Shown here: positions 7,421-43,801 of the stretch, piece after piece
Numbering within the stretch: position 1 is the first letter of the stretch
How the letters are laid out: each line of letters begins with the position of its first letter
NCBI GenBank assembly: GCA_947476255.1
Contig: CANJPY010000012.1
Location: 1-64,000 of the forward strand
Source: Chthoniobacteraceae bacterium
GTDB taxonomy: Bacteria > Verrucomicrobiota > Verrucomicrobiia > Chthoniobacterales > Chthoniobacteraceae
Direction: 5' to 3'
Length of the DNA: 64,000 nt
Program-made: the position numbers and the translations under genes
The notes under the pieces: model-generated
Seen by the model: the letters and a program-made list of their open reading frames with translations, nothing else
Told to the model about the DNA's origin: nothing
Database searches by the model: none

Positions 7421-7768
<348 letters not shown>

Positions 7769-24593: not shown

Positions 24594-27086
24594 TTATTTA
24601 TTCTGGAAGATCGGACTCTGCACAACCTCGTGCACAAGCGTTTTTAGCCCGTAGTTGGTCCCTCGCAATTTGGCCAGGATCTGCTCCACAACCTCACGGT
24701 CGGCAAACTGAATGTCTTCGCCGGTAGAGTAGATCAGCAGCTTTTGCGTGAGGCTGCGCGCGAGTTGATCTTTGTCCTCGAGCAGAATCTTTTTGTAGTC
24801 GTCGACCGTTTCAAACGTCTTCCCGCCGGGAGTCGTCCCTCCACGCTCAACATCCAGCCCGCGATAGACAGCGCGTCCGCCGGAATAAGGCAAAGACAAA
24901 ACCCCGGCAGCCGTCTTGATGGTACTGCGGTAAAACTCCCGCCAGTTTCCAATTGGATCAAAGTTTTCCAACGCAAACCCCGGAGGATCGATATGAATGT
25001 GGCAGGTGGCGCAGGCGGGAGTGTTCCGGTGCAACTCCAGTTGCTGGCGAATGGTCGTCGCGCCCCTGATGTCCGGCTCGATCGCGGGAATATCCGGCGG
25101 TGGCGGCGCCGGCGGTTTGCCGAGAATGCGTTCCAGCACCCATTTGCCGCGCAACACGGGAGAGGTGCGCGTACCGTCCGCCGTCACTTTGAGCACGCTG
25201 GCTTGCGTCATGACCCCTCCACGGTGCATCCCCGCGGGAAGCGACACCTTGCGAAATTCATTCCCCTCGACGCCGGGGATTCCATAAAGTTTTGCAAGGC
25301 GTTCGTTGAGGATTGTCCAATCGGAATCCGTGAAATTGAGCAGGCTGAGATTCTTTTGCAGGACCTCTTCAAAAAAGAGCTGCGTCTCCCGTGGCATGGA
25401 CCACCGCAGGAGATCATCAAAGTCGCTGTAAAGAAGAGGGTCCGGTATCGTGAAATCAATTTTGCGCAGGTCCAACCACTGGCCGACAAAGTTTTCTGTC
25501 AATGCACGCACCTTGGGGGATTTGAGCATCCGTTCGACCTGCGCGCGTAGTCCCGCAGGAGAGCTCAATTCTCCGCGTTGCGCCGCAGCAAGAAGTTCCG
25601 CGTCGGGCTGTGTGGACCACAGGAAGTACGAGAGCCGTCCCGCCAGCGCATAATCATCCAGCTTCGGGCCCGGCAGAAAGCCCTGTGCGTCCGCCTGCGC
25701 CACCGTCGAATCCATGAGGAAGAGGAAGTCCGGGGAAGACAGGATGAGTTTGTAACCAAACATCATCGCATCGTAGAAGCTGCTTTGTTGGTCCAGCTTC
25801 GCCCACACCTTCTGCACAAAGTGAAGCTGCATGGCCTCGCTCACAGGCCGTCGAAACGCCCGGGGCAGAAAACTCCGGATCAGCCGCTCCGCGTCCTCTT
25901 TGGGATGCTCCGAGGCAGGCACAAGAGGATCACCAATCCATTGCGCCTGCGTTCGGTTCGCACTGATCACAGGCGGTTTGTTGCCGGCAAGTTCCGCTTT
26001 GAGCACAGACTTCGCCTTCAGCGGAACCTCCGCAAAAAGCGTGGCATAACTGGCGGAGGGAAACACGTCTACCGGTCCCTCGACTTTCAAGGATTCCACA
26101 AGCAGCCCCGGTCCCGTATATTCCTCGATCGGCTTTTTGAAGCCCCGGATATCCCAAGTCGTGAGCAGGTTCACCACAAAGGCCTGCTGGCGGGCCAGGT
26201 CGCATTCAAACTCAATCGTTGTCGGTTCCCCATGGGGGATTTCACGCACCTCCCGAAGCACGGGCGACTCCCGACCGCTTGCCATGACGGTGCAAAACCC
26301 AACGGCAAGGGGTCTCTTGTCCTCGCCCACCGCACACGCTCTCATCTGGATCCGGTAGCGGCCCTCAATGGGAACCGCCGCCGTGGCACACAAGCCATAA
26401 CGGGGAAGCTTGCTATAAATAACCAGAGAATCTCCCTCGAGTCTGGAGTTGCGCCCCAGCCCTTGGTTGAAGTTTGGGCCTTTCTTCACAAAGTCCTGCC
26501 CGTTACGGACGTCACTGAAGGGAAGTGGAGGACTTACTGGCACAACCGATGCGATGGCCTTTGCGGCGGCTTCTTGAAAAAGGAGGAAGTGTGTCGGAGA
26601 CAAGTCCAGCCCTCGGCTTACATTGTCAAAACCCGCCGTGGTACTGTCCTCGGGAAGCATCTCCTTGAGGGAGACGTTTGTGCCCAGCAAATCGTGAAGC
26701 GTGTTTTCATATTCCGTTCCGTTCAGTCTTCGCACAACCACACGGCCAGTGCGACGCTGCTGTTCTTTGGATGCCGACAACAGTTGCTCCCGCAGATACC
26801 GCGTTGTTTCCTCCAACTCGGATTTTGGCGGCCGCTCGCGTTTTGGCGGCGGCATTTCACCTGCCACCAATTTGTCGTACACATGCGTCCAGACTGCCGC
26901 CGTTTTTTCATCGCGGAAATCCAGAGGCAGCGTGTCGAGGCGCAATCCTGCTTTGCGGGAGTCTTCCCCATGGCAATCGGCGCAATGCTCCGCGACAAAC
27001 TGCGGCACGTTGGCCCCAGGCTTCGCCCAGACTGCAGGGTTCGTAAAACAAAGGACGACAAAGGGCAGCAAGCGGAAGCAATTCAT
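24594..27086 (-). CDS. Exported DUF1587/1592/1588/1585 cytochrome-like protein
   Basis: Large exported protein (830 residues from the chosen start). The Met at 27086 begins a clean signal peptide (MNCFRLLPFVVLCFTNPAVWAK); an ATG 21 bases earlier would add seven polar residues. Order: heme site CADCH (Cys35/Cys38/His39), DUF1587 with RRLNGTEYENTLHDLLG, a beta-rich insertion at about 190-370, DUF1595 with FLPRAFRRPVSEAMQ, DUF1592 with YKLILSSPDFLFLMD and LSYFLWSTQPDAELL, DUF1588 with GVMTQASVLKVTADGTRTSPVLRGKWVLERILGKPPAPPPPD and a second heme motif CATCH, and DUF1585 with LLIYSTGEDI. Redox partner and substrate unknown. It is paired with the DUF1552 gene downstream. Confidence 0.93.
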   Translation of the reverse strand: MNCFRLLPFVVLCFTNPAVWAKPGANVPQFVAEHCADCHGEDSRKAGLRLDTLPLDFRDEKTAAVWTHVYDKLVAGEMPPPKRERPPKSELEETTRYLREQLLSASKEQQRRTGRVVVRRLNGTEYENTLHDLLGTNVSLKEMLPEDSTTAGFDNVSRGLDLSPTHFLLFQEAAAKAIASVVPVSPPLPFSDVRNGQDFVKKGPNFNQGLGRNSRLEGDSLVIYSKLPRYGLCATAAVPIEGRYRIQMRACAVGEDKRPLAVGFCTVMASGRESPVLREVREIPHGEPTTIEFECDLARQQAFVVNLLTTWDIRGFKKPIEEYTGPGLLVESLKVEGPVDVFPSASYATLFAEVPLKAKSVLKAELAGNKPPVISANRTQAQWIGDPLVPASEHPKEDAERLIRSFLPRAFRRPVSEAMQLHFVQKVWAKLDQQSSFYDAMMFGYKLILSSPDFLFLMDSTVAQADAQGFLPGPKLDDYALAGRLSYFLWSTQPDAELLAAAQRGELSSPAGLRAQVERMLKSPKVRALTENFVGQWLDLRKIDFTIPDPLLYSDFDDLLRWSMPRETQLFFEEVLQKNLSLLNFTDSDWTILNERLAKLYGIPGVEGNEFRKVSLPAGMHRGGVMTQASVLKVTADGTRTSPVLRGKWVLERILGKPPAPPPPDIPAIEPDIRGATTIRQQLELHRNTPACATCHIHIDPPGFALENFDPIGNWREFYRSTIKTAAGVLSLPYSGGRAVYRGLDVERGGTTPGGKTFETVDDYKKILLEDKDQLARSLTQKLLIYSTGEDIQFADREVVEQILAKLRGTNYGLKTLVHEVVQSPIFQNK

Positions 27087-27116
27087 GGTTTTGTGGGTCG
27101 GCGGCATTTGTCCGGT

Positions 27117-28265
27117 TTAGACTGAAAGCACCTCGTTTAGTTGCACAAGACGGCTTTTTTCCGTGAGCGATTTTGCAGCTGCATGGATCACCGCCGTGAC
27201 CTCCAGAATTTCCTGATGCGGCACAGGCTCAACCCCGGTTAGCAACATCTGGCGGAACGTCGCCGCCATGCGGAACATCTGGTAGTGGTAGCCGAAATCA
27301 AAACTGCCCTCGATAGAGGGAGTGAAGGAATGAAGCTTCTTTTTGAAGTAGAGGTCCGTCCTGTCGTATTCAAACTTTTCGTAGGGTTGTCCAAACCACA
27401 CGTGGCACGGATACCGGTCCGGATAGGTGATGAAGGCGTGGCACGTATCCTTGTGTTCGATCAGGCTTACCGCCTCGACACCGGGGCCCATTAAAGTCAT
27501 CACAGCCCAAACAGGATGCTGTCCATAAATCATCCAGCCAGGCAGGCTCGAGCGGCTGAACAACCGGGCTGAAACATGTTCCAGGACACCGTACTCGCCC
27601 GAGTCGCGCATGCGCAGAGCCGCCTCCATTCCCCACTCGTAACGCCACGCGCTCGAGGACATCAAAGGTGCGTTGTGCTTGCGGGCCCAGTCCAGAATCT
27701 TCCGCGTCCCCTCGGGCGTACCACCGATGGGCTTGTCACAGAAGGTGGGAAGTCCCCGAGCCAGGGCCGGAGCCACGAGACCAAAGTGATCATCCCCCAA
27801 GCCCGAAGCATCGCCCATCCATATCGCATCGACCTCCTTGAGCATTTCCTCTAGGCTCGTGGCGACTTGAACTCCGGGAAACACCTCGGCAAAGGCCGCA
27901 CCCGCTTTGGCGTCGAGTGGATCGAAGTAGTGCGTGATGCGCGTGTCTGGAAACGGCAGCGAATCAAAGTTGTACTTTGGATTGCGCAGTACTTTTCCAA
28001 ACAGTTTTACACCGTAAGGATAGTGCTTCTTTAACGCCTCCAGATCGAATTCCGGGTGCAGGTACTGGGCGAAATGCCAGATATGCCCGTTGCGCGGCTG
28101 CGCCTTACCCTGGATCGATGCCGAGATCACACCGATGCGGAAAGTCTTAGCCTGTGGTGCCGCTGTTTGCGCCTGGCCTGTGGTCAATCCGGCCAGCGAA
28201 AGCAAACCTCCAGCGCCCACCGTTTTGAAAAGATCACGGCGCGAAGATTTGGTCCGGGTAGGCAT
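27117..28265 (-). CDS. Tat-exported Gfo/Idh/MocA family oxidoreductase
   Basis: NAD(P)-type oxidoreductase fold, 382 residues, exported by a twin-arginine-like signal (SSRRDLFKTVGAGGLLSLAG). Family features: a Rossmann start at FRIGVISASIQGK (no classical GxGxxG), VDAIWMGDASG where canonical members have VIATP-type segments, and FCDKPIGGTPEGTRKILDWA corresponding to the EKPxxxxxxE lysine motif. A long hydrophilic insertion after the first strand (NGHIWHFAQYLHPEFD) is typical of the planctomycete-type exported members. Since these exported forms often keep a tightly bound cofactor or lack activity, substrate and reaction are unclear. It is the first gene of the operon with the cytochrome (30 bases downstream) and DUF1552; an AT-rich leader lies upstream. 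Confidence 0.85.
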   Translation of the reverse strand: MPTRTKSSRRDLFKTVGAGGLLSLAGLTTGQAQTAAPQAKTFRIGVISASIQGKAQPRNGHIWHFAQYLHPEFDLEALKKHYPYGVKLFGKVLRNPKYNFDSLPFPDTRITHYFDPLDAKAGAAFAEVFPGVQVATSLEEMLKEVDAIWMGDASGLGDDHFGLVAPALARGLPTFCDKPIGGTPEGTRKILDWARKHNAPLMSSSAWRYEWGMEAALRMRDSGEYGVLEHVSARLFSRSSLPGWMIYGQHPVWAVMTLMGPGVEAVSLIEHKDTCHAFITYPDRYPCHVWFGQPYEKFEYDRTDLYFKKKLHSFTPSIEGSFDFGYHYQMFRMAATFRQMLLTGVEPVPHQEILEVTAVIHAAAKSLTEKSRLVQLNEVLSV

Positions 28266-28326
28266 GTAATGCTAATTCAATTCAGTTTTAGTTATTAGAC
28301 CATCTCTTTATGGATTATTGATTATT

Positions 28327-28351
28327 AAAAAACCTCAGCTTTTGGGAAAGC
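28327..28351 (-). terminator. Weak candidate terminator downstream of the sulfatase
   Basis: On the minus strand there is a 5-bp stem gcttt/aaagc with a 4-base loop, then 5 bases, then six T. Short stem and gap make it weak; it would end transcription from the sulfatase before the Gfo/Idh gene. Confidence 0.35.
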
Positions 28352-28408
28352 GGAGCTCCGGAAGGACTCTCTGATAGCAAATCTTGAAAAAACTGGGCTG
28401 TCTCTCCC

Positions 28409-28486
28409 GGGACCGCGGAGCCCCAGCTCCGCTTTGACGCTCCAAAAACGCAGACAGTCATTGCGGAGCTGGGGCTCCGCGGTCCC
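28409..28486. repeat. Perfect 24-bp inverted repeat with 30-base spacer
   Basis: Arms at 28409-28432 and 28463-28486 are exact reverse complements. Each arm contains its own palindrome (gcggag/ctccgc around ccccag or its complement), and a degenerate relative (gcggagctccg) lies at 28350-28361. It sits in the 381-base gap 28266-28646 between two minus-strand genes, which otherwise holds the AT-rich leader of the Gfo/Idh gene. No T-tract follows either side, so a dispersed repeat is more likely than a terminator. Confidence 0.9.
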
Positions 28487-28646
28487 AGAGGAAGAAGACC
28501 AGTTATCTCCAAGATTTTGGAGAGGAAACCATCCATCCAAACGCGTCTTTTCGCCCCCCTTTCGGGCAGCTCGGATGCCCATAGAAGCGTTGGAAAGCAC
28601 GCCTACAGACCGGCGCTTTCAACCCAACCAAACTCACCCCGCGAGG

Positions 28647-30023
28647 TTAGGGGGCATTCGCCGCATCCCGGGCGGTGGCGGGTGGCATCGGTTTATGCAC
28701 CACAACGTCCTTACTCCAGGCTTTCCAATCGGCCTCAAGTTGCCTCACCAAGTCCGGGTGTTGGGCCGCGAGATTGTTCTGCTCGGCGTTATCCTGCGAC
28801 AAATCGTAGAGCGCCAGGGACGGTTCTTTCGCACCCTTTTCGGGACCTGCAAAAGTCAACTTCCACTGGTCCTTGCGAATGGCCCACTGTCTTTCGTAGT
28901 CCCAACATAACAGGACGTGTGGTTGGCCCGTTTTGCCCTCGAGGAACGACAGCAGATTCACGCCGTCCTGAGGCCACTTTTTATCCGGTTCCACGCCGGC
29001 AAGAGCCAGAATGGTCGCGGTCAGGTCCATGTGGATGACTGGTTGCTTGTAGACTGCCGGCTTGAGGCGGCCCGTCCATTGGACAAACATCGGCACCCGG
29101 ATGCCGCCCTCCCATGTCTGCCCCTTGCCGCCGCGCAGAGGCGTGTTCAGGGACGCATTGGGAGCGTTCCTCGTGATTGGTCCGCCGTTGTCGCTGTGGA
29201 AACAAACCAGCGTGTTCTCTTCCAAAGCCGCCTCGCGCAACGCCGCAAGAACACGTCCGATATTATCGTCCATCGCCGCAAGCATGGCCGCGTATGTCCG
29301 GCGCTTCTTGTCCTCAATGTGGCTGAAACGCGCCAGATACGTCTCAAGCGCGTCCATCGGGGTGTGCACCGCATTAAAAGCCAGATACAGGAAGAACGGC
29401 TGCCCTCCGCCCTTCTGACGCTGGATAAACTCGACGGCCTCGCGTCCAAATGCATCGGTCGCGTACTCCGTGAGGGCCACGGGTTCATGCCCGCGCAGGA
29501 TCTGCGTGTACAGGTTTACCTTCGCGTCGGGCCCCTTGGGTTTGTCGGGAAAATAACTCCGTCCACCCCCAAGAAATCCGTAAAATTCATCAAACCCGCG
29601 CTTAAGCGGATGGCTCTCCGGCTGTTCCCCTAAATGCCACTTTCCCACAACGCCGGTACGATAACCCGCCGCCTTCAAATACTCCGAGATCGTGGGCACA
29701 TTACTGTTCAGGCCGGGCTTGCCGGGCGGCACCCAGTCGTGAACTCCGTCACGGTAATGGTAGCGCCCCGTAAGCAGGGAGGCGCGGGTCGGACTGCACA
29801 CGGTGCCGGTCACATAGCCATCGGTGAAACGAACACCCCGGTTGGCAATGGAATCCAAATGAGGCGTCGGCACGTCTTTACAACCCTGGACACCGCAGTC
29901 CGCGTAACCCATGTCATCGGAAACAATGTAGACGACGTTGGGTTTTGGAGCGGCGACGGTGGCGCCCCGCAAAGCGGCTGCAGGCACCAGCATGCAAAGG
30001 AGGAACAGGAAGCAGTGGAACAT
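28647..30023 (-). CDS. Exported sulfatase (Cys-type, formylglycine-dependent)
   Basis: Sulfate ester hydrolase of 458 residues with a signal peptide (about 1-21, ending LRGA). The N-terminal metal-binding segment NVVYIVSDDMGYADCG is followed by the maturation motif Cys76-Ser-Pro-Thr-Arg (CSPTRASLLTGR), whose Cys is converted to formylglycine by a separate enzyme not present in this window. VVGKWHLGE supplies the conserved Lys/His, and VCFHSDNGGP the C-terminal Asp/Asn of the metal site. Substrate probably a sulfated carbohydrate, not assignable further. It stands between the end of the large exported-protein operon (67 bases upstream, with a terminator) and the Gfo/Idh operon. Confidence 0.93.
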   Translation of the reverse strand: MFHCFLFLLCMLVPAAALRGATVAAPKPNVVYIVSDDMGYADCGVQGCKDVPTPHLDSIANRGVRFTDGYVTGTVCSPTRASLLTGRYHYRDGVHDWVPPGKPGLNSNVPTISEYLKAAGYRTGVVGKWHLGEQPESHPLKRGFDEFYGFLGGGRSYFPDKPKGPDAKVNLYTQILRGHEPVALTEYATDAFGREAVEFIQRQKGGGQPFFLYLAFNAVHTPMDALETYLARFSHIEDKKRRTYAAMLAAMDDNIGRVLAALREAALEENTLVCFHSDNGGPITRNAPNASLNTPLRGGKGQTWEGGIRVPMFVQWTGRLKPAVYKQPVIHMDLTATILALAGVEPDKKWPQDGVNLLSFLEGKTGQPHVLLCWDYERQWAIRKDQWKLTFAGPEKGAKEPSLALYDLSQDNAEQNNLAAQHPDLVRQLEADWKAWSKDVVVHKPMPPATARDAANAP

Positions 30024-30089: not shown

Positions 30090-33000
30090 TTACTCAACCA
30101 CCACCTCAACCCGGTAAAAACGCTGCGCCGTTTTTGAAATGGAATCCACAAACTCCATTTCAGCATCCAGCCCATTGAGGTCAGGGCTCGCCACCGCACT
30201 CCATGTCTTCAAATCACCGCTTGTCAGCACGCGGTACCGGACCCCGGCCTTACCAAACCAACGAAGCGTGAAGACATCATTGGTGACAGCCGTGCTTAAG
30301 ATGCGCAGGAAATCTGCAGCCGAATTGGGATCCGTCTTGGCCCGCCACTCCGCTTCGTTGGACTGGCCGTCTCCATCGGCGTCTTGGGTAGCGCCTCCCA
30401 CGGAATCATATTTACTGCCAAAAACACGCTGCGCCCACGTTTCGTAGGTTTCAATCGTGCCAGCGGTGACATCAAGAGTCCGGAGCACGGGTTCTGCGGA
30501 ATCGTATTTGTTGCTCCCATCTTGAAGCGCACGGACCATGACCTTCCCAACACCCGTCGGGACGAGTGTCGTGCCTTGAAGTTTCGCCGGGCCGCTTACC
30601 AATTCAAAAGCCACTGGCAGTTTGGAAGTCGCCGTGGCAGAGAGCTTCAGAGAGCCTTGCGCGAGCAGACGATTCGCAACGGCCGGAAAAGTGATGGTCT
30701 GTTGTGTCAGCGGCGTTCCTGGATCATTCGCGAGCGCATCGTATTTTATCGAGGCCCGCACTTTGCAGACCGCTTTGCCGGATCCACCCTCGCCAACAAA
30801 CATGGCTTTCACGATGTAGCTCCCGTCCGCTGGGACTTCCCAGCCGTTGATTGCCTCGCCAAACCCTTCTCCCCAGCGGTTGGCCTCCGCTAAAATCTGC
30901 GAGTTCTCACCGATAATTTGCAGGGTAACATCCCGGTTCGGAGAAACCTCCAACGCCTCAAGCAGCACGCGTTGCCCACGCTCCAAATCAATGCGCCAAT
31001 TGCCGCCCTCCAAAGACTCCACACCCATGAGGCTCCCATCCAAGGGCATCTTCAACCTTGGCAGCGCAACCGTTGCCGGCGCGCCAGCCCTCGAGCTCCC
31101 AGCGTAAAACACCTGGATCACCGCCGCAGGCGTACTCCGGGACGGATCTCCCTCCGTGCCCCCTCGGACAAACACGAGGTAAATGCCAGGTTCCGAGAAT
31201 TTCTTGAACACACCCTCATACCTGTCCTTTGTTGCATTTCTCCACAGTTCCACCGCCCCGCGTTTTGAACCGTCCGGTCCAATGACGTCTCCCCACACAC
31301 GCTCTGGAGACCCGCCGTCGGGCATCATCACGCCCGACACGTAAAAACGTGCCGCGCCCTTTTGCGGAGTTTGAACCGCCATGCTTGCCTTCCAAATAAA
31401 CGGCGGATCGTCAGCCGTTATGTAAGCGGACCCCACAAACGCATTGATCGACTTGAGCCCATCCTGCGCTTTGTCAAAAACGCCGTCCCCATTGTCGTCA
31501 AACTGCGCCGGATTGTCTTTGCCAAACGTCGCAGCGGCAATGAGTTCGGCGAAGGTCATGGCTTCTTCATAACTTTCACGCAGGTCGCGCCCCCGCGCGA
31601 TGGCGCTCCAGATCCAGTTGCTAAAGGTCGACCACTGCCCGTTCACATAGGTGTTCTTCCTTTCGCTGCTCGTACTGGAGATAAAGATGCGGCTCTTGTT
31701 TGGATTGGCGGCGCCCTTCACGAATATGCCCGAATAATCGGCGTCCACAATGACCTGCACCTGCGCGCGCGAAGCTGCCTGCAGTGTATCCAACCACAGC
31801 TTCAACGACGCCGGCGTGATGACCTCTCCATTGGCGCACAACAGCCCCTTGGGACTCGCCTCTCCAACCAGAAACAACGTCAAGACGCCCAGTTGGCCGT
31901 CCGCATTGGCCCACCGTTGAATGGCGTCTTTCAAGTTCGCCCCGGTCGCCCCTGCCGCCTTGCTGACCAAAAGCGCGGGATCCGCAAAAACCTTGATATC
32001 CTCCTCCAACACGCGCCTCCGTGTTGCCGCTTCGACCGCGTACTTCGCGAGTTTGCCGGCATCTGCGGAGCCGGTCCACGTGGTTTTTCCAGTGCCAAAC
32101 ACCACCAACCGACTCCGCATCGACTGCTGCGTGATATGCACAAGGGAAGGCGCACTCACCTGCCCCCAGACATCGCGTGCCTGGACCAAGACGGTGTAGG
32201 GCGCACCGCTTTCGCTAAAGCCGCCGACCTTTGACGACCACAACCCCGTCGCATTGTCCAAATGAAAGTCCACCTCCGGAAGACTCGTGACGGGCGCGTC
32301 TCCAGTGGGGCGGTAGCCCGGCGGCACAATCACGCCAAACACCCGCTCCACGGCCAGGGCGGACGACACGGACGCCGTAATCGTGGTTTCACGCGTGCCT
32401 TGCAACACCACATCTCCCCCCACAACACTCGCCACGGGCCGGCCCGAATCCGCCACGATGTCGAACCCGAGTTTTCCCGCTGAAAGCAACGCCCCGCCCG
32501 CGCTCGCCTGCGGCGTTTGCAGGCCTGCCATGGCCGCAACTGCCGCCAGATGCGCCTCGCCCAGCGTCTTCCCCGAGGCCACCGCACTCCACCACATCAT
32601 GGAATAACTCACCAACCCGTTCGCCGCCAGATGCGCCAGTTGGTTGATTCCAGTCGAACTCAACACCAACCGACGCGCCGCATATCCATCCGGCTTTGCC
32701 ATCGCCGTCGTAATCCGGCCTGCATAGCAACTTTCCACAAGCACCAGCACCGAGAGTTTCGGATGCGCCGCCTGCAGGGTGTCCAGCCACTGATCCAGCT
32801 CCGTACCCGTCACGGTTTCGGTTTCCGAGAGGATAAAAAGACCGTCGCCATTGTTGGATATACGCCCGTGGTCGACGAGGTACACAAAGAGTTGCTCCGT
32901 GCCTGCATCCACCGCGCCCCCGTCCCTCAGGGCCGCCGCCAGAGCGGCTCGCGTGGGAGGTGCCGCGGCGCGGCTGCCATACCCCAGCGTCCGGATATCC

Positions 33001-35756
33001 GCATTCCGCAGGCCGCGATACTTCAGCACATCCATCGCTCGCGAAGTCAGTGTTTCGGAGGCCAGCCACACCGGGTCATTGACACTCCGGCGTCCGTCGA
33101 CAAGAAGCGCCCGGAACTTGTGCAGTGTCCCGGGGTCGGACTGCACCACGTTGATCCACGCCACTCCCGTGCGTCCCGCGCCGTTGGTCGCAACGACCTG
33201 ATCAATGCCCGGTTTGCTCCCAGCCGTGTACAGCCCGCCCACCGCGGTGGTCCCGCCCGTTACAAGCGTTCCACTCGAGACACTGCCCCCACTGCGGCTG
33301 CTGCCCAACTTCCACACCAACGTGCCATCATCATCGATGCTGCTGAACTGCATACTCTCCCCCGTCCCGAGCGTTAAGACCGCGGGCGTCAGCCTCAAAT
33401 GCGTCGCCGGGTTTTGCAAATAAACAAGCGCCCCGTCGTTCCCGCCCCCGACTACATCCGGCGCGCCGTCCCCGTCAAAGTCCGCCACAGCCGCGCTCAA
33501 CCCGGCACGGAAGCCATTAAAACTCCCGCCCCAAACCTTGCTCTCCAAGCCAAAACCGCCGCTGCTTTTGCCCAGAAAACGCCAGATCCGCCCATCGGCA
33601 TCCGACGCCAGAATGTCCGCATTTCCATCATTGTCGGTATCCAAAACGGAAAGGGCGGTGCCTCCCAAGATCGGATTGCCCGAAAGCAAGTCGGCACTCG
33701 TAGCCGTTGCCACGTACGGCACCACACCCGAACGTTTTGCAAAGTGCAGCACCCTGCCTTCCGTCCCGTCCAAAACCAACAGGTCCGGACCTCCGACCTT
33801 GTTCCAGAAGGCGGGATGCACCGCGCCGGCACCGACCTTCAGGTTTCCCACCCACTCAAAAAGAACCGCTCCGCTGGACGTTGCCCGGTAAAAACGCAAC
33901 ACACCGTCGTCCGAACCCACCACGAGATCCGCGCGGCCATCACCACTCCAGTCTCCGAGCGCCGGATACACCGCGCCACCCGGCCAGTTCGCAAGACCCG
34001 CCAGCGCGCTGGCATCCGCCTTCAACTCCGGTGAAAACGGCGAACCCGTGTTGCGGTAAAAACGCACCGCACCCCCGCTTCCGCCCACAATCAAATCGAG
34101 GTCCCCGTCGCCATCCACATCGCCGAGAGCCGGCGCACTCGCTCCGTTGGGAAGTTGAAACGTGCCCGGACTCCCGTTGAAAACGTTTTTGAAGAACCCG
34201 CCACCGCCTTTTTCAAAAGCCTGGCTGGCTGGGAAAAACTGCAGGTTGAGCACCAACTTCTCGCCCCGCCGGCGGGACACGCCGCCCTCGAGGATCCCGC
34301 CATCCCCCGCACTGTCCGGGATCCGCGGCTGGGACCCCAGCAAGTACTCGGCCAAAAGCGTGACGCCGTCGCCATCGGTATCGGAGGTCGCGCCCTGCGT
34401 GAGCGCGCCGTAATGCCACATCTCGTACCAGTCGGGAAGGCCGTCCAGATCGCTATCCGCAGCGACCGGGTAATAGGTTGCGACCGCCGAGGTATCCGCA
34501 TTTAACGTGAACGTGGCCTGCATCAGTCCGATCCCAGCGGGTGATTCCTGCCGGATGCCGTTCACCAACCAATGCCCAAATCTGTACCCGTTGACTTCGG
34601 GTTGTGCGCTGCTCGTGGTGACCAGGGTTCCCAGCGTCAGATACGTGTTTTTGGAAACAATGCCCGGCGGCACACTGACCTCCGTGTACTTCACATAATT
34701 GGAGGAAAAAGCGAGCGCCAGTTTCTCCCCGCGCCTGCGCGAAACACCGCCCTCGAGCACCGCCCCATCCGAAGCGCTGTCGGAGATGCGGGGTTGCGTG
34801 CCGTCGGCGTATTCCTGGGCAAGCGTGCGGCCGTCACCATCCGTGTCACTTGTTCCCGAGATGAGAAGGGTTCCGTAGTGGTAGAGCCGGTACCAGTCGG
34901 GAAGCCCCTTATTTCCAGTGTCCTGCGCGATAGGGACGTATTCCGCCACCGCGGTTGTAGTCCCGGACAACACGATGTTCACCTGACTCAAAGCAATGCC
35001 ATTGCCGTTCTCCTGCCGCACCCCGTTGATCTTCCATTGGGTAAAGCGGTAGCCCTGCGTCTCGCCGCTGAGATTCGCGGTGGCGACAGTGGTGCCCGCC
35101 TTCACATATTCACGGCGCGCGACAATCCCCGGTGGGTTGGAAGATTCGGTGTAAAGGTGGTAGCCCGGCCCGACGGTCACCGCGATACGCTCCCCGCGCC
35201 GCCTGGAAACACCGCCCTCAAGAATCCCCCCGTCAGCGGCGCTGTCGGGAATCCGCGGTTGCGAGCCCTTCACATATTCGTTGAGCAGGGACACGCCGTC
35301 GCCATCGGTGTCGCTGGAACTTGAAATCGCGAGCGTGCCGTAATGGAATAGCTTGTACCAATCGGGAACGCCCTGTGCAGAGGAATCCAGATCCTCTTTG
35401 AGGTACACCGCGACGGCATCGGTGTTTTCGAGAATCGGAAAATTAAACGCCGTGGTAGAGATGCCAAAACTGTCGGCCTGCCGGATGCCGTTGAGTTTCC
35501 AGTAGGCAAACCGGTATGCCCCCGACTGCATCGGCGGCGAGGAGACCGAGACCGTCGTATTCACATCATAATAACGACTCCCCGTCACGATCCCGGCCGG
35601 GTCCGAACTCTGCGTCAGTTTGACCTGCGTCGCCGTGGTCGCCGCGTATACGAAGCCCGCAATGACGACAAGCAGCGCCACCCATGCGCTTTTGGCGCGA
35701 GTGGAAAGTCGCTTGGGGGGGGATTCGCGAGGCGTCACCGGATGCGGGCCGTCCAT
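30090..35756 (-). CDS. Giant exported protein with two clan CD (C13-like) peptidase domains, the second degenerate
   Basis: 1888 residues, exported or anchored by a hydrophobic segment at 24-40. Three tandem units follow, each with a beta-sandwich-like part (GYRFTQWKINGVRQ...), LPDWY..YHYG, a calcium-binding-like SDTDGDG and the phrase EGGVSRRRGE; that phrase recurs at 181-189, 336-344 and 491-499, exactly 155 residues apart. FG-GAP-like calcium loops lie at 545-775 (DVDGDGDLDL, DWSGDGRADL, DTDNDGNADI, DFDGDGAPDV). A legumain/caspase-fold domain at about 880-1100 has His963 in YLVDHG and Cys1010 in LVESCYAG. A second such domain at about 1215-1440 aligns by LWLDTLQAA but reads LVGEAS (Glu1299) and IVDADYSG (Asp1340), so the dyad is lost. 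The C-terminus has another DADGDG site and a beta-rich end. Last gene of a four-gene operon. Confidence 0.8.
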   Translation of the reverse strand: MDGPHPVTPRESPPKRLSTRAKSAWVALLVVIAGFVYAATTATQVKLTQSSDPAGIVTGSRYYDVNTTVSVSSPPMQSGAYRFAYWKLNGIRQADSFGISTTAFNFPILENTDAVAVYLKEDLDSSAQGVPDWYKLFHYGTLAISSSSDTDGDGVSLLNEYVKGSQPRIPDSAADGGILEGGVSRRRGERIAVTVGPGYHLYTESSNPPGIVARREYVKAGTTVATANLSGETQGYRFTQWKINGVRQENGNGIALSQVNIVLSGTTTAVAEYVPIAQDTGNKGLPDWYRLYHYGTLLISGTSDTDGDGRTLAQEYADGTQPRISDSASDGAVLEGGVSRRRGEKLALAFSSNYVKYTEVSVPPGIVSKNTYLTLGTLVTTSSAQPEVNGYRFGHWLVNGIRQESPAGIGLMQATFTLNADTSAVATYYPVAADSDLDGLPDWYEMWHYGALTQGATSDTDGDGVTLLAEYLLGSQPRIPDSAGDGGILEGGVSRRRGEKLVLNLQFFPASQAFEKGGGGFFKNVFNGSPGTFQLPNGASAPALGDVDGDGDLDLIVGGSGGAVRFYRNTGSPFSPELKADASALAGLANWPGGAVYPALGDWSGDGRADLVVGSDDGVLRFYRATSSGAVLFEWVGNLKVGAGAVHPAFWNKVGGPDLLVLDGTEGRVLHFAKRSGVVPYVATATSADLLSGNPILGGTALSVLDTDNDGNADILASDADGRIWRFLGKSSGGFGLESKVWGGSFNGFRAGLSAAVADFDGDGAPDVVGGGNDGALVYLQNPATHLRLTPAVLTLGTGESMQFSSIDDDGTLVWKLGSSRSGGSVSSGTLVTGGTTAVGGLYTAGSKPGIDQVVATNGAGRTGVAWINVVQSDPGTLHKFRALLVDGRRSVNDPVWLASETLTSRAMDVLKYRGLRNADIRTLGYGSRAAAPPTRAALAAALRDGGAVDAGTEQLFVYLVDHGRISNNGDGLFILSETETVTGTELDQWLDTLQAAHPKLSVLVLVESCYAGRITTAMAKPDGYAARRLVLSSTGINQLAHLAANGLVSYSMMWWSAVASGKTLGEAHLAAVAAMAGLQTPQASAGGALLSAGKLGFDIVADSGRPVASVVGGDVVLQGTRETTITASVSSALAVERVFGVIVPPGYRPTGDAPVTSLPEVDFHLDNATGLWSSKVGGFSESGAPYTVLVQARDVWGQVSAPSLVHITQQSMRSRLVVFGTGKTTWTGSADAGKLAKYAVEAATRRRVLEEDIKVFADPALLVSKAAGATGANLKDAIQRWANADGQLGVLTLFLVGEASPKGLLCANGEVITPASLKLWLDTLQAASRAQVQVIVDADYSGIFVKGAANPNKSRIFISSTSSERKNTYVNGQWSTFSNWIWSAIARGRDLRESYEEAMTFAELIAAATFGKDNPAQFDDNGDGVFDKAQDGLKSINAFVGSAYITADDPPFIWKASMAVQTPQKGAARFYVSGVMMPDGGSPERVWGDVIGPDGSKRGAVELWRNATKDRYEGVFKKFSEPGIYLVFVRGGTEGDPSRSTPAAVIQVFYAGSSRAGAPATVALPRLKMPLDGSLMGVESLEGGNWRIDLERGQRVLLEALEVSPNRDVTLQIIGENSQILAEANRWGEGFGEAINGWEVPADGSYIVKAMFVGEGGSGKAVCKVRASIKYDALANDPGTPLTQQTITFPAVANRLLAQGSLKLSATATSKLPVAFELVSGPAKLQGTTLVPTGVGKVMVRALQDGSNKYDSAEPVLRTLDVTAGTIETYETWAQRVFGSKYDSVGGATQDADGDGQSNEAEWRAKTDPNSAADFLRILSTAVTNDVFTLRWFGKAGVRYRVLTSGDLKTWSAVASPDLNGLDAEMEFVDSISKTAQRFYRVEVVVE

Positions 35757-35779: not shown

Positions 35780-37918
35780 TTACTTGGTGACAGGAACCAC
35801 CCAGAAGCCATCCGCCCCCGTGTCAAAGCCGTAGGAGTTGATCTTGGCTGGCCGCTCGTCCGGCCCCACGCGGCGGGTCTTGGGATCCCACTGGTTGATG
35901 ACGCCAGGCGTGCCTGCCTCCTTCGCGCGCTTGACCTCCTCAGGCGTGGCCTCGCGCAGACCCATGAGGTCAAAGAGGAACTTGCGTCCTGCAAGAGATG
36001 TACCAGTCCCAGAAGCTAGGGAACTATCGCACCGTATCTGCGTTTTACTGATGTCCGATGGTCCTGTGCCGGTTGGATACAGGTTCAAAGCGAAGTAGTG
36101 GTATCCTCCCTCTCTGTCATCGAAATCAATACGCATGGAGATCGGGACACCTGCCTGAGTCTGAACAACGTATGAACTTGGATTGTTCTCAGAGACCACC
36201 TTTTTACCGTCCAACCAGATAGTGACCACATCATCAACACCAATGTCCAAGGTGTAGTTTCCTGTAACAGTGGGCACAAATTCGCAATTCCATCGAACGC
36301 TGTAAGGCACAAACGGGATACCGGCGACTCCAGAGGGCGACCAGCCGTAGTTCAACAAAGGAACGTCATCAATTCTCTGGAAATATTGACCGGTGAAATC
36401 TGCATTGGAGAAGTACTCCGCAGAGGCCCCTTGCACCATTGCCGATTGTGTTCCAGCACTTAACAATCGACCATCTAACAGCTTAATGTTCGGGTTCTGC
36501 GTGGCAATCAGCCAGTACCACACCGAAAGAAAGTCCGTATCGTTTAAAGGCGAGCGGCTGATTTTCAACTCAGGAAGTCCTTTATCCGCCGGAATCCGGA
36601 TAAAGTCCAAGTTCAACAGCCCTCGTTTGTCTTTCGCGAGAATCTCCAGTTGCACCTCGCCAAAGTCCGTGGCCCAGTCCTTCGTGACGTCCCACGTAAA
36701 GCGGTGTACGGCGCCCGTTGTGATGCCCGTCCCCAACTGGACGCCCGTTCCCTCGGCGAAACTCGTGATGGGAATGACGTCAGCGAGCGAATTGCCGCCG
36801 TTCTTAAAGGCAAGCGCGGCCGTCTGGACTGTGGCGTCGTCCGCGTCCTTGACGACATAATCGACATCCACAAGCGACGTCCCCGGGCGCCTTGCCTGCG
36901 ACAGAATACTCGGCAGAGGAACGGCGTTACCCGGCTCGGGCTGCGCAAGTCGGTACGTGCGCTTCCACAAGCGAACGACGTGGTCGCCTCCATGAGCTGC
37001 GACGATATCGCCAGAAACCGTTTCAGCAATACAAGCCCACTTGCAATCCCATTCCTTCAACAATTCACCTGAAACTATATACAATCGCATTGCGCTGAAG
37101 CCCCACTGATATTCGCACTGCACGCAAAGCAGGCCATCACGCAGAAAACAGAGTCTCTCCGGGCGAGCTGACGAATAACCCCCGGGAGTCGCGAACTGGC
37201 GCACAAAGCCGCCATTCAAGTCGAATATTTGTACCCTGCTGTTACCCGCATCTCCGACAGCAAGGAAGCCCTCCGGCGAAACAGCCAGACCATGGGGCTC
37301 CTGAAACTCGCCATAAAAGCTGCCCTGCTTCCCAAACTTGAACAAAAATTTGCCGTTCGCGTCGAACACCTGTACCCGATGATTGTTGCGATCTGTGACA
37401 AACACAGTGCCCGTCTTGCTAACCGCAACTTGATACGGGGAGTTGAACAACCCGTCCGTGCTTCCGGCACCGCCAAACTTCGCCACAAACTTTCCATCCA
37501 AGTCGAAGATCTGCACGCAGTTCCCATCGCAATCAACAGCGTACAAACGGTTGTTCGGACTGATTGCAAGCCCCCCGGGACCCACAAACTGTCCGTTTCC
37601 ACTACCCTGGGAACCAAAGCGTTTTACGAAATTGTAAGCCTTATCAAACTTGCGGATCTCGTGATTATTGTAATCGCTAATGTAGATGTTTCCGTCAGCA
37701 TCAACCGCGATGCCATGGGTGGCGCCAAACTCGGCACTCCCGTTCTCGTTCTGCCCTCGAAACTCTTTCGCCAAATACCAAGTATCCTGCGGCATCCGCT
37801 GGGCCTGAGCCCCATTCGGCAGCAGCGCGCCTAGCAGGATCCAACACAGGACACTCCGCAGGACGGTTCGAAAGACTGAGCACGAAGTCATACCGGAAGA
37901 AAGGTGGATGGGATACAT
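35780..37918 (-). CDS. Exported NHL-repeat and PA14-domain protein
   Basis: From the Met at 37918 the protein has 712 residues with a signal peptide (hydrophobic FRTVLRSVLCWILLGALLPNGAQAQ after about 15 residues; the Met at 37891 is also possible). An in-frame ATG at 37990 overlaps the stop of the upstream gene (ATGA) but would bury the signal. Residues about 64-243 hold four NHL-type units (HGIAVDADGNIYISDYNNHEIRKFD and similar), which build a beta-propeller. Residues about 498-613 are a PA14 domain (AEYFSNADFTGQYFQRIDDVPLLNYGW ... DIGVDDVVTIWLDGKKV), usually carbohydrate-binding. The C-terminus KRAKEAGTPGVINQWDPKTRR is unassigned. Third gene of the operon, 23 bases before the peptidase-domain gene; probably cell-surface or periplasmic. 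Confidence 0.82.
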   Translation of the reverse strand: MYPIHLSSGMTSCSVFRTVLRSVLCWILLGALLPNGAQAQRMPQDTWYLAKEFRGQNENGSAEFGATHGIAVDADGNIYISDYNNHEIRKFDKAYNFVKRFGSQGSGNGQFVGPGGLAISPNNRLYAVDCDGNCVQIFDLDGKFVAKFGGAGSTDGLFNSPYQVAVSKTGTVFVTDRNNHRVQVFDANGKFLFKFGKQGSFYGEFQEPHGLAVSPEGFLAVGDAGNSRVQIFDLNGGFVRQFATPGGYSSARPERLCFLRDGLLCVQCEYQWGFSAMRLYIVSGELLKEWDCKWACIAETVSGDIVAAHGGDHVVRLWKRTYRLAQPEPGNAVPLPSILSQARRPGTSLVDVDYVVKDADDATVQTAALAFKNGGNSLADVIPITSFAEGTGVQLGTGITTGAVHRFTWDVTKDWATDFGEVQLEILAKDKRGLLNLDFIRIPADKGLPELKISRSPLNDTDFLSVWYWLIATQNPNIKLLDGRLLSAGTQSAMVQGASAEYFSNADFTGQYFQRIDDVPLLNYGWSPSGVAGIPFVPYSVRWNCEFVPTVTGNYTLDIGVDDVVTIWLDGKKVVSENNPSSYVVQTQAGVPISMRIDFDDREGGYHYFALNLYPTGTGPSDISKTQIRCDSSLASGTGTSLAGRKFLFDLMGLREATPEEVKRAKEAGTPGVINQWDPKTRRVGPDERPAKINSYGFDTGADGFWVVPVTK

Positions 37919-37986
37919 GGGGTGCGCTTGGAAGGGCCGTGGGTGCAACGGCGGGGCAGGTTTTGATTTTCGAAAGGCGGAAAGCT

Positions 37987-40614
37987 TCATGGCTGGGTGG
38001 TGGGCGCGAGGGACCAATCGGACGAAGAAAGCCCCTGCGGGTTCGTGACCTCCGTCCAACCTTTGGCGCCAAAGGTCGGTTTCACGGACAGCGCCCCGAC
38101 GAGGCTGCGCTTCGCTTTGTCGCTGGGGGAAACATACTCACCCGTCAGCGCTCCGGTTGTATTGTCAAACCGCAGCGTCAGGGCGGGGACATTGCCCCCT
38201 GCCTGCGGGACCACTTCGACACGCGGCGCCGCGTTCAGCGAAAACGAAACCCGCCACTGGTACGGAGCCGCACTGGCACCGGAGAGAGGGTCCCGCGCCG
38301 TCAGCAGAAATTTCGCCCCGGGTTTAAGGAAATCCGGCAGAGCGGAGGCCACCGGAGGCACCCACCGCAAACCGTCCTGATTGACAAAGGACAGACGTTG
38401 CACAGAGGAAACGTTCCCGGCCGCCTCGTTGTAAGCCAGAAGCCCTTGTTTTGTTGCGATATTGCCCCCCTGTTGCTCGAGGGCGCCTTCCCCCGAGGCG
38501 TTGCCCACGCAGACCTTCCAACCCTCCGCAGGACGGGTCAGGTAAACGTATCCCAGCAGCGTCCGGGTCGAGATGGAAGTGGCACTGGATGCGCTGCTGG
38601 TCTCGCAGAAGGGGAAATTAAACGTGCCTCCGTTGAGTGTGCGCAGCGAGGCACTGCCCGAACCCGTGTACCCGGGAGCGCGTGTGGTCCATGAAACGCG
38701 GCCCGTATTAAGCACCTGCAACTGAAGCAACACCCGGTTGGCAGACTGGACCGTGTAGGAACCCGTCGGCGCGGCCGCAGGCAACGCTGCGGGGAGAGCG
38801 GCGGGAAGGCATTTGAGCGCGGTTGTCAGGTAAGTGCCGCCGGCGAGCGAAGCGGTGTCCTGAACCGACACGTTCACCGAAGGCGGCACACTCGAGCAAT
38901 CCAACTCCAGACCCAAGGTTTGCCCCGGATTGACCGCGGCTTTCGAGGGCGCGAACACAAACACCGAAGGCTTCCCTTCCACGGGCGCAAACGCCCCCGC
39001 GTAGGAGCGCGACACAGGCAGGTACGCGCGCACGGTCTTCGCTTTTCCTTCGAGCACCACGGGAGCTTCGACGTAGGTGAGTTTCGCGGTAACGGCGCCG
39101 GTGGTGGCGATGTCAAAGGAGACCTGCCCCCGGTAAAGCGCGTGATCCCCGAGCGCGTCCTTGTCATCTTGAAGCAGTGCCTCGTAAGACGCCGCCAGGG
39201 CGGACCAGGGCTTCGCTTCCACGCGGAACGGCACGCTGTCAAACTGAGCCGCGGTTCCCGCAAACGTGCGCACAAAACGCACGATGTATTCTCCCGAACC
39301 CGGAAGCGCGCGTAAGGGCAGCAACAAGGACCCGTTCACCGGCACCGAACCGCTCATGCCTGGCAGCGGGTTTTTGAACACCCCACCCGTGCCGATAAAG
39401 ACCTGGTAGGTGGTGGAACGCACCGTTGCAGCCGCCGGCGCGAGCTGGATGGGCAAAGTCGCCGCAGTGCCCTGGATCGTTTTTACATTCACGGGCTGGG
39501 TAACGACCAGACTGCCCAGCGAGCCGCCGACGGAGAGAACGGCAGGCGCGCTTGTTTTCGACCCGAACCGGTTGGTGACCACAACGTCATAAACACCTGC
39601 ATCGGTGAGTTTGAGCGCGGTCAAGGCGAGCTCCGCCGTGGTCGCCTGCGGCAGCACCACTCCGGCGTGGCGCCACTGGTAGGTGACAGGCCCCGTGCCC
39701 GTCACACTGACACGGAGTTTGGCACTGCCCCCGGCGCTTGCACTGACACTTTCGGGTTGTTTGAGAATCCCCACGGGCGTGTTCAAACGCAAAGTCGCCA
39801 CGGAACTCGTGAGGGTCCCCGCGATATTGGTGGCCACCACCTTGTAATCGCCCAACTGGGAGGCGCCCACCGCGCTCACCGTGTAGGAGGCACTCACGGC
39901 ACCGGCAATGGCGGAGCTGCCCTTGAACCACTGGTACTGGATGGGCTCGATGCCTTTGACCTCCACGGCGAACGTCGCACTGCTTCCGGAATCCACGCTC
40001 AAACTCTGGGGATTGGTGATGAATAACGGCCCGCAAGGGAGAGTCGTGCGGAAAGCGGATGCGGCCCCACCTTTCCAGACAAGGCCGTTATCGAGCAGCG
40101 ACAAACACACGAGGCTCCCCGGAATGCTGCTGGGGGCCTGCCAGTTCCATTTGGACCCTGCGCTGACCTCGTTGTACAGGGTGGAGATGCCCACGGTTTT
40201 CCCGTCGAAAAACCGGACCACCAACGGCGTGCCTTCCACCGGCAGCGTCTGGCCGGAGTCGGCCGCCCCTTGGACAAAGGTTGAGACGAGGCTAAACCGG
40301 CCCGCACCCCCGCCCCCACTGTCTCCGATGGACGTGGTCCGAAAGGCGGCATTGGCAGAAGCGCCCCCGGTGAGCGGGACAAAAACGCCTGCAAACGGCG
40401 CCGTGGAAGTGCCCTTGGTGTAATACCCGAGCTGGACGCCGGCCCCATCCCCATCCTCGGCCCCACCTGAACTCAAGGCGGCTCCCTTGCTGTCGAGAAG
40501 CAACGTGGTCGCGGTGTTTTGCCACGCCACCTCCGTGAGGTTCTGCGCGCGCGCGCTCGCGCCCGCTCCCGCGAGGGCGAGTACGAACACAACGATAGGG
40601 AGAAAAAACCTCAT
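37987..40614 (-). CDS. Exported protein with tandem Ig-like repeats
   Basis: 875 residues from MRFFLPIVVFVLALAGAGASARAQ, a textbook signal peptide; the frame is open another 102 codons upstream into the preceding gene but those have no start context. Two immunoglobulin-like domains are clear at about 210-290 and 295-370: QSLSVDSGSSATFAVEVKG...YQWFKGSSAI...LGDYKVVATNIAG and ESVSASAGGSAKLRVSVTG...YQWRHAGVVL...AGVYDVVVTNRFG. The remainder is Ser/Thr/Ala/Gly-rich and beta-predicted by eye, with repeated phrases of the type 'GQTLGLELDCSS' and 'RVEVVPQAGGNVPALTLRFDNTTGALTGEY' that recur in Verrucomicrobiota surface proteins. No catalytic motif. Second gene of the operon (19-base gap upstream), probably an adhesive or scaffold component. 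Confidence 0.78.
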   Translation of the reverse strand: MRFFLPIVVFVLALAGAGASARAQNLTEVAWQNTATTLLLDSKGAALSSGGAEDGDGAGVQLGYYTKGTSTAPFAGVFVPLTGGASANAAFRTTSIGDSGGGGAGRFSLVSTFVQGAADSGQTLPVEGTPLVVRFFDGKTVGISTLYNEVSAGSKWNWQAPSSIPGSLVCLSLLDNGLVWKGGAASAFRTTLPCGPLFITNPQSLSVDSGSSATFAVEVKGIEPIQYQWFKGSSAIAGAVSASYTVSAVGASQLGDYKVVATNIAGTLTSSVATLRLNTPVGILKQPESVSASAGGSAKLRVSVTGTGPVTYQWRHAGVVLPQATTAELALTALKLTDAGVYDVVVTNRFGSKTSAPAVLSVGGSLGSLVVTQPVNVKTIQGTAATLPIQLAPAAATVRSTTYQVFIGTGGVFKNPLPGMSGSVPVNGSLLLPLRALPGSGEYIVRFVRTFAGTAAQFDSVPFRVEAKPWSALAASYEALLQDDKDALGDHALYRGQVSFDIATTGAVTAKLTYVEAPVVLEGKAKTVRAYLPVSRSYAGAFAPVEGKPSVFVFAPSKAAVNPGQTLGLELDCSSVPPSVNVSVQDTASLAGGTYLTTALKCLPAALPAALPAAAPTGSYTVQSANRVLLQLQVLNTGRVSWTTRAPGYTGSGSASLRTLNGGTFNFPFCETSSASSATSISTRTLLGYVYLTRPAEGWKVCVGNASGEGALEQQGGNIATKQGLLAYNEAAGNVSSVQRLSFVNQDGLRWVPPVASALPDFLKPGAKFLLTARDPLSGASAAPYQWRVSFSLNAAPRVEVVPQAGGNVPALTLRFDNTTGALTGEYVSPSDKAKRSLVGALSVKPTFGAKGWTEVTNPQGLSSSDWSLAPTTQP

Positions 40615-42170: not shown

Positions 42171-42355
42171 GAGCCGGTTTTTTTGTGAAAAGCGGCGACG
42201 GGGATCAGATACGGGAGACGGCACAGCCCTGCATGCAGCGAGCGCATTCCAAGTTGCGAAAGATGCGTTGGAAGGATGCCTCCCGCCCTTCAGGCACCAC
42301 CGCACGTTAAGCGGGATTCTTCCTAAGGGAAATGCCCGGCCGGGGTAGGCATGTT

Positions 42356-43801
42356 ATGTCCGCTTCTTCAACCACGCCGCCCCTCAGGGAGGGCATCACG
42401 CGCCGCTGCCTGCTTCAGCGCGGCGCCCGCAATTTTGTGGGGATCGGACTGGGCGGCATGCTCTCGGTTTTGGGAAAGAGCCCGGTTTTCGCGGGCGCGG
42501 GTTTGGGCGGGCAGGGCAAACACTTTGGGCGGGCCAAGAACGTTCTTGTGATACTCGAACAGGGAGGACTCTCCCACATGGACACCTGGGATCCCAAGCC
42601 GGACGCGCCTTCGGAACACCGGAGCGTCTTCAAGCCCATCTCCACCAAGGTGCCGGGGATGCAGTTCACGGAACTCCTCGCCAAGACCGCCAAAGTCGCG
42701 GACAAACTCGCCGTCGTACGCTCGATGCACCACAAGATCAAAGTGGACGATCATCCGCGCGGCACGCAGTACATTCTTTCGGGCGAAGTCCCCGGCGGGC
42801 CCGTGGAAATGCCTGACATTGGGAGCGTCGTGGCTTTCCGTTCGGGAAGCCAGTGCAAGTATCTGCCGCCCTATATCATGGTTCCCGGCAACCATGAACA
42901 ATCGGCGATGACCCGCTCCGGTTATCTGCCCCCCAGTTATTCGGTCTTCAAAACCTCGGGCAAAGACTTGTCCGACCCGGCTTGGAAAGTGCCGAACCTG
43001 AGTTTTATCACGGGCATTGATGAACGCCGGTTCAAGGATCGGCGCGATCTTTTGAGCAATCTTGACATTGGCCTTGCGACCGACGGCACGCCGGACGCCG
43101 AGGCGATGAAGACGTTTTACGATCAGGCCGAAAACCTCCTGACCAACCCCAACACCATGGGGGCGTTTGACCTCTCCAGCGAATCAGACGCAACGCGCGA
43201 CCGTTACGGACGCGGGCACCGGGGCCAGTCCTATCTGGCCGGACGCAAGCTGGTGGAGTCGGGTGTGCGCTTTGTCACGGTGGATGTCCGCGAGCCCCAG
43301 ACGGATAAAACGCCGGGCGGCGGAAACCTGAACTGGGACCATCACGACTACATCTACGCCAACGGCACCTGCAACCTCGCCGGAGCGCAGGGCGGAGTCG
43401 GCCGGTATGGCATTGGAACTTGGTGGATGATGGGCTCAACCGACCAGGCATTCAGCGCGCTCATCGAAGACATGGACCAGCGCGGCCTGCTCAAGGAAAC
43501 GCTCGTGTGCTTCGTCACCGAGTTCGGCCGCACGCCAAGGCTCAACAAAACAAAGGGGCGCGACCACTGGCCAAACGCATATTCGATTGTTTTCGCCGGC
43601 GCGGGAATTCCCGGCGGGCAGATCATCGGCGAGACCGATAGCGAGGGCGGGTATGTGACTGAAAAGCCCTATACACCCGAAGATTACGCCGCAACGGTTT
43701 ACGAGTTCCTGGGCATCGACCGCGAGAAACCCCTGTTTACTCCCGACGGCAGGCCCATCTTTCTGGCCAAGAAGGGCGAGGTCATCAAGGCGCTCATTTA
43801 G
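42356..43801 (+). CDS. Exported DUF1501 protein (second copy)
   Basis: 481 residues from the Met at 42356 (MSASSTTPPLREGITRRCLLQRGARNF), a twin-arginine-like signal; eight codons further upstream are open from an ATG at 42332. DUF1501 features: VLVILEQGGLSHMDTWDPKPDAPSEHR, a GVRFVTVDV segment followed by NWDHHDY, and VCFVTEFGRTPRLNKTKGRDHWPNAYS with GGQIIGETDSEGGYVTEKPYTPEDYAATVYEFLGI. It is first in a + strand operon with a PPC-domain protein, a DUF1549/DUF1553 cytochrome and a WD40 cytochrome, a standard PVC arrangement. Reaction unknown; the fold relates to sulfatases and phosphatases. Confidence 0.92.
   Translation: MSASSTTPPLREGITRRCLLQRGARNFVGIGLGGMLSVLGKSPVFAGAGLGGQGKHFGRAKNVLVILEQGGLSHMDTWDPKPDAPSEHRSVFKPISTKVPGMQFTELLAKTAKVADKLAVVRSMHHKIKVDDHPRGTQYILSGEVPGGPVEMPDIGSVVAFRSGSQCKYLPPYIMVPGNHEQSAMTRSGYLPPSYSVFKTSGKDLSDPAWKVPNLSFITGIDERRFKDRRDLLSNLDIGLATDGTPDAEAMKTFYDQAENLLTNPNTMGAFDLSSESDATRDRYGRGHRGQSYLAGRKLVESGVRFVTVDVREPQTDKTPGGGNLNWDHHDYIYANGTCNLAGAQGGVGRYGIGTWWMMGSTDQAFSALIEDMDQRGLLKETLVCFVTEFGRTPRLNKTKGRDHWPNAYSIVFAGAGIPGGQIIGETDSEGGYVTEKPYTPEDYAATVYEFLGIDREKPLFTPDGRPIFLAKKGEVIKALI

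Follow-up and report, generated by a model that had tools for sequence, protein, structure and literature searches.

Within the 64,000-nucleotide stretch of DNA that was analysed (the window), one open reading frame at 30090-35756 on the minus strand encodes a protein of 1888 residues. Reading of the sequence indicated an apparent signal/transmembrane stretch at the N-terminus, and this is followed by repeats, an FG-GAP propeller, a tandem core and a tail. The propeller region occupies approximately residues 501-790 (33387..34256, minus strand; borders approximate) and was assigned from three stretches matching PF13517, with an E-value of 3.5e-17. The core comprises four domains, all encoded on the minus strand, namely an active-looking C13/legumain-like domain (domain 1, residues 878-1105, 32442..33125), assigned by PF01650 and a model match; a first Ig-like domain (residues 1106-1211, 32124..32441); a pseudo-legumain domain (domain 2, residues 1212-1445, 31422..32123), assigned by the match of its own model to legumain; and a second Ig-like domain (residues 1446-1570, 31047..31421), the two Ig-like domains being assigned by HHalign to each other. 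The tail beyond the core matched the Verrucomicrobia family NF042425 weakly, scoring 31 bits where the cut-off is 50.

The original prediction had described tandem clan CD domains in this region, citing motifs and residue numbers that were all recovered within this single frame. Domain 1 contains YLVDHG at residues 959-964 and LVESCYAG at residues 1006-1013, which provide the predicted catalytic residues His963 (codon 32868..32870, minus strand) and Cys1010 (codon 32727..32729, minus strand), both assigned from the motif and from relatives. The corresponding places in domain 2 were assigned from the motifs LVGEAS (residues 1296-1301) and IVDADYSG (residues 1336-1343) together with a multiple alignment, and hold Glu1299 at the catalytic-His place (codon 31860..31862, minus strand) and Asp1340 at the catalytic-Cys place (codon 31737..31739, minus strand). 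The sequence WLDTLQAA is present twice, at residues 990-997 in domain 1 and 1321-1328 in domain 2.

A neighbouring gene at 35780-38059, also on the minus strand, lies 23 bases upstream of the tandem gene and encodes an NHL propeller (PF01436), a PA14 domain (PF07691) and, at about residues 340-545, a conserved middle domain for which there is no Pfam name. Two more copies of this middle domain were observed elsewhere in the same genome (G000:C45 and G000:C50). The flanks of the locus, at window positions 24594-30023 and 42332-48684, carry sulfatase, GFO/IDH/MocA oxidoreductase and Planctomycete-type cytochrome/DUF1501/PSD genes.

Homology and fold of the two copies

Domains 1 and 2 were aligned by BLASTP with an E-value of 2e-11 and 33% identity over 144 columns, and by HHalign with a probability of 96%. 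Their local alignment score was 130, compared with a mean of 35 (standard deviation 5.7) and a maximum of 62 for 1000 shuffled sequences, and with a best score of 40 for other segments of the same protein tried as a control. The relatedness of the tandem copies, as originally proposed, was therefore upheld by scores far above chance. The position of Glu1299 opposite His963 depends on the alignment, because the BLAST alignment places a two-residue gap of domain 2 at Asp962-His963; the multiple alignment of relatives puts Glu1299 at the His963 place. The two Ig-like domains are likewise homologous, with HHalign of both family alignments giving 99.9% and an E-value of 3e-32. As a homologous Ig-like domain stands behind each caspase-like copy, the core is to be described as a [C13-like + Ig-like] pair present twice, and the duplicated unit is larger, on sequence comparison, than had been recognised from the letters alone.

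Assignment to family C13 was examined with profiles and with predicted structures. For PF01650, which has a cut-off of 22.8 bits, the whole protein fell below with 20.5 bits and a 595-residue tandem fragment lay above with 24.5 bits, and 14 of 14 tandem sequences matched the profile at E <= 1; caspase_w_EACC1 (NF047832) gave 30.3 bits against a curated cut-off of 140. When the family profile was compared with solved structures, GPI-anchor transamidase was the best match (E = 0.0019), followed by legumain (E = 0.0092), both at domain 1. The structure models were computed from alignments of 19 sequences each, comprising the window and loci from the related-locus search. The four-domain core was predicted with a pLDDT of 82.2 and a pTM of 0.75, and at domain 1 legumain ranked first by fold (Z 25.6 for 4nol and 25.1 for 4aw9). 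Domain 2 modelled alone gave a pLDDT of 87.3 and a pTM of 0.89 and again resembled legumain most closely (Z 22.7, rmsd 2.5 over 212 residues), so that by fold domain 2 is a pseudo-legumain; a different fold for domain 2 was ruled out by this model. Structure prediction, which had been suggested as a check, accordingly places a clan CD caspase fold in both copies. Domain 1 carries the His963-Gly964 and Cys1010 dyad of family C13 and is best read, judging from its sequence, as an active-looking cysteine peptidase of C13 type, while domain 2 has Glu1299 and Asp1340 in place of that dyad and retains the legumain fold by model.

The Foldseek and VIA-align matches to the tandem model each covered one caspase-like domain well. 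In the search for a solved chain covering both copies, a match that ran across the two, 8tl0 (SAVED-CHAT), was discarded as not meaningful at an rmsd of 14.5. Gingipain, separase and clostripain were absent among the matches listed for the tandem model, which is no argument against kinship.

Conservation, descent and genomic context

For the comparison of catalytic places, 35 rows of domain 1 and 30 of domain 2 were aligned, and counts were made from readable rows. In domain 1, His was present in 34/34 rows and Cys in 33/33; in domain 2, His was found in 0/29 and Cys in 1/29. The one exception, L048 (G171:C279), has Cys in the sequence VDSCYS and lacks the His, so that a domain 2 with the His/Cys pair, the case that had been named as contradicting the prediction, was found in none of the readable rows. 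The active copy precedes the dead one in all rows in which both are readable, and the proposed succession of an active-looking and a degenerate copy holds across relatives. Since the loss of the dyad from domain 2 is common to these relatives, it is no quirk of the window genome, and a local accident was ruled out on the same ground.

The acidic character of the pair fared differently. The residues at the His place of domain 2 are Glu (9 rows), Gln (6), Asp (4), Thr (3), Asn (2), Ala (2), Gly, Val and Pro, and those at the Cys place are Asp (13), Ser (5), Pro (4), Ala (4), Leu, Glu and Cys. Both places are acidic in only 4/29 rows (the window, L024, L051 and L052), and the four nearest relatives of the window (L019, L020, L046 and L047) have Gln at the His place and Asp at the Cys place. 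Conservation of the acidic pair among homologues, raised originally as a question, was thus answered in the negative, and the idea that the pair forms a conserved site for catalysis or metal binding was rejected. What domain 2 does keep are framework residues, with Gln1326 and Arg1356 present in 100% of the rows read and Gly1389 in 96%, and a DDxxDG loop at residues 1420-1425, in which Asp1420 and Asp1421 occur in 28/28 readable rows and Gly1425 in 27/28. In the window this motif belongs to a DDNGDG loop assigned to residues 1420-1433 (31458..31499, minus strand) from the sequence pattern and from relatives. A loop of this kind has been lost from domain 1 of the window, and a similar one is present there in many relatives. 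The DDxxDG loop resembles EF-hand-like calcium loops, and we infer from its sequence that it is a better candidate calcium site than the old active site. Of the proposal that domain 2 binds calcium, the part concerning the acidic pair is unsupported because the pair itself is not conserved, and binding at the loop is plausible.

A tree was computed from 59 of the 65 domain rows, with fragments and near-copies left out (L039_1, L040_1, L035_2, L022b_1, L022b_2 and L053_1). Domain 1s and domain 2s lie on opposite sides of one branch with support of 99/95, and none of 500 shuffles gave a split as low. Two relatives contain a single unit of one C13-like and one Ig-like domain, L038 from a Desulfobacula MAG and L041 from a Simkaniaceae MAG. 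Both have an intact His-Cys dyad, and on the tree they lie between the two tandem groups, joining the domain 1 side at its base. In L041 (4665-9545, plus strand), reading of the sequence indicated that the unit is accompanied by RCC1-like repeats and a formylglycine-enzyme-like stretch. The simplest reading of these sequences is that the [C13-like + Ig-like] pair was duplicated once, before the tandem proteins of Verrucomicrobiota, Kiritimatiellota, Lentisphaerota and Sumerlaeota parted, and that the dyad of copy 2 was probably lost early after this duplication; horizontal transfer of the tandem gene between these groups is possible. Between the window and its four close relatives, domain 1 is 63-65% identical, domain 2 48-59% and the Ig-like domains 49-61%. 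The pace of change is somewhat higher in copy 2 than in copy 1, and on these values copy 2 is not decaying freely.

Relatives were found in Verrucomicrobiota, Kiritimatiellota, Lentisphaerota and Sumerlaeota. The tandem protein is present in 2/40 genomes of the family, 6/384 of the class sample and 9/387 of the phylum sample, each count including the window's own genome, and this sparse occurrence implies an accessory function. A named genome collection provided 23 related loci. Repeats of contigs fetched by name (L004, L007-L010, L013, L014 and L016) and loci replaced by longer stretches (L003, L005, L006, L011, L012 and L015) were counted once. In the Pontiellaceae locus L051 (4487-11007), the tandem gene occupies two overlapping frames (ORFs 4487-7087 and 7045-11007), reflecting either a frameshift or two genes.

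The middle domain of the upstream neighbour was found directly upstream of the tandem gene in the window and in nine further loci (L019, L020, L022, L039, L046, L047, L051, L053 and L054), that is, in 10 of the 22 loci whose upstream stretch was long enough; the contigs of L039 and L053 stop short of a complete domain 2. Scanning of ORFs of at least 200 residues revealed no middle domain directly upstream in the other 12 (L021, L023, L024, L026, L028, L029, L030, L032, L033, L036, L037 and L050), of which L024 has a middle-domain gene some 5 kb downstream of the tandem gene. Across loci, the domain is fused to varying modules, including NHL, PA14, RCC1, Ig and Lcl_C. In the phylum sample it occurs in 6/9 genomes with the tandem protein compared with 17/378 without (Fisher p = 1.7e-6, uncorrected for kinship). 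Among these six, G298 matches weakly and on a different contig; with G298 scored as absent, p becomes 4e-5. A functional link between the tandem protein and its neighbour, as possible partner or substrate, is a lead and no result.

Comparison with known systems and interpretation

Legumain (asparaginyl endopeptidase) and GPI-anchor transamidase, both of family C13, have the same fold and DHG/Cys dyad as domain 1, and domain 2 shares the fold. The tandem protein differs from these enzymes in being duplicated together with Ig-like domains and in having a dead second copy. Legumain itself is regulated by a different C-terminal domain.

Pairs of active and inactivated caspase-like domains are known from other families. 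Gingipain R (C25) contains active and inactivated caspase-like domains followed by an IgSF domain (PMC4626109, PMC4357240); its inactivated subdomain A and the active domain make up a covalent dimer (PMC4626109). Apart from the difference in family (C25 versus C13), the inactive domain comes first in gingipain and last in the tandem protein, where an Ig-like domain stands behind each copy. Csx29 of Craspase combines a pseudo-caspase CHAT1 and an active CHAT2 in one chain and is said to resemble separases (PMC10028731); in separase itself, the second domain went undetected in PMC4626109. In separase and CHAT proteins the pseudo domain precedes the active one and there is no Ig-like pair, and the tandem protein has the reverse order. 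Separase and CHAT proteases are intracellular. PMC6426788 describes c-FLIP as the inactive dimer partner of caspase-8, and also pseudo-orthocaspases, which are bacterial caspase-fold proteins without the dyad, with Tyr-Ser the most common residues and most members in Alphaproteobacteria and Cyanobacteria; the word "tandem" is absent from that paper. Pseudo-orthocaspases lack the dyad as domain 2 does, and differ in taxa and in their usual residues. Carboxypeptidase D consists of tandem carboxypeptidase + transthyretin-like units, the last of them inactive (PMC11266112); it resembles the tandem protein in having two-domain units that end in an inactive one, and is an unrelated metallopeptidase.

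Searches of an open-access library returned no account of peptidase C13 in Verrucomicrobia or of a caspase in Kiritimatiellota, and nothing on pseudo- or inactive legumain, pseudo-gingipain or tandem caspase-like domains. On pseudopeptidases this library yielded a metallopeptidase review only, the listed titles on the legumain-like/C13 family concerned eukaryotes, their enzymes or inhibitors, and no inactive schistosome legumain was found by title. The tandem protein is best read as the C13 counterpart of the gingipain and CHAT pairs, in reversed order.

On the evidence of sequence comparison and modelling, the copies are homologous and share a predicted fold, the pair was duplicated as a whole, and the dyad was lastingly lost from copy 2 and retained in copy 1. 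That the fold is kept and the cutting residues are lost in nearly every relative suggests that the dead copy helps or controls the live one, and the pTM of 0.75 for the four domains suggests a defined arrangement of the copies. We favour, with some reservation, a secreted protease of the legumain type that has a pseudo-protease built in as its partner, the core consisting of two [legumain-like + Ig-like] units. The protein would be a secreted multidomain surface or extracellular protein, in which copy 1 would act as a His-Cys peptidase of the C13 kind and copy 2 would be a pseudo-peptidase that gave up catalysis long ago while retaining its fold together with a probable calcium loop. By analogy with gingipain, CHAT and caspase-8/c-FLIP, copy 2 would pack with copy 1 as a built-in partner and might set its stability, its activation (perhaps by calcium) or its substrate docking. 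The substrates of copy 1 may include the modular surface protein encoded directly upstream, which is the least certain step. Counted against this reading are the faster evolution of copy 2, the Cys of L048, the sparseness of the family and the presence of the neighbour in 10/22 loci; in addition, the authors of PMC6426788 take the view that regulation of active orthocaspases is not what most bacterial pseudo-orthocaspases do. From the original prediction, a pseudo-peptidase beside an active copy is retained in this reading, and the acidic pair as its key detail is given up.

A less likely alternative is that domain 2 serves for binding or as a scaffold, for instance as a surface adhesin or substrate-presenting part, and works separately from the domain 1 active site. 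Binding-type modules do abound in the protein (FG-GAP and two Ig-like domains), and the conserved residues of domain 2 belong to the framework, with no evident groove; the strict active-then-dead order fits a coupled pair better, and the tree indicates that both copies were retained together. New chemistry or a calcium site created by the acidic pair at the old active site is very improbable. Asp occupies the Cys place in 13/29 readable domain 2 rows, and Glu or Asp the His place in 13/29, yet conservation would be expected of a site for catalysis or metal binding, and this pair varies, with Gln/Asp in the nearest relatives and Ala, Ser, Pro, Thr or Val in others. We give equally little credence to a functionless, decaying duplicate: the dyad is lost and domain 2 changes faster than domain 1, but its fold is intact and well modelled in several phyla, with invariant residues, and such conservation makes decay unlikely.

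A further proposal, compatible with the built-in partner as a special case of it, is a mainly transamidase-like enzyme that would mature or anchor the modular surface proteins of adjoining genes, domain 2 acting as the receptor of their middle domain. This is quite unlikely in our estimation. It would account for the finding of the middle domain, fused to varying modules, immediately upstream of the tandem gene in nine loci besides the window, and for its co-occurrence with the tandem protein, the significance of which is uncorrected for kinship; GPI-anchor transamidase is also the best sequence match among solved structures. Against it stand the 12 loci with upstream sequence and no middle domain, the 17 sampled genomes that carry the middle domain without the tandem protein, and the closeness of the transamidase and legumain E-values, with legumain first by fold.

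The preferred reading, a protease with a built-in dead partner, can be extended to a bolder version, which we consider unlikely as a whole. The tandem proteins would form a new lineage of built-in pairs, independent of gingipain, separase and CHAT and reversed in order, in which calcium bound to the dead legumain copy would switch or aim the live copy, and the latter would mature adjoining modular surface proteins. If true, Verrucomicrobiota, Kiritimatiellota and their kin would possess a dedicated means of processing surface proteins. The family apparently represents another solution of the "active domain plus dead twin" kind among caspase-fold proteases. It offers a clear evolutionary record, with single-unit relatives, one duplication and a dyad permanently lost from one of the copies, and a clean test case, in secreted bacterial proteins, for the service that a pseudo-protease copy renders to its partner.
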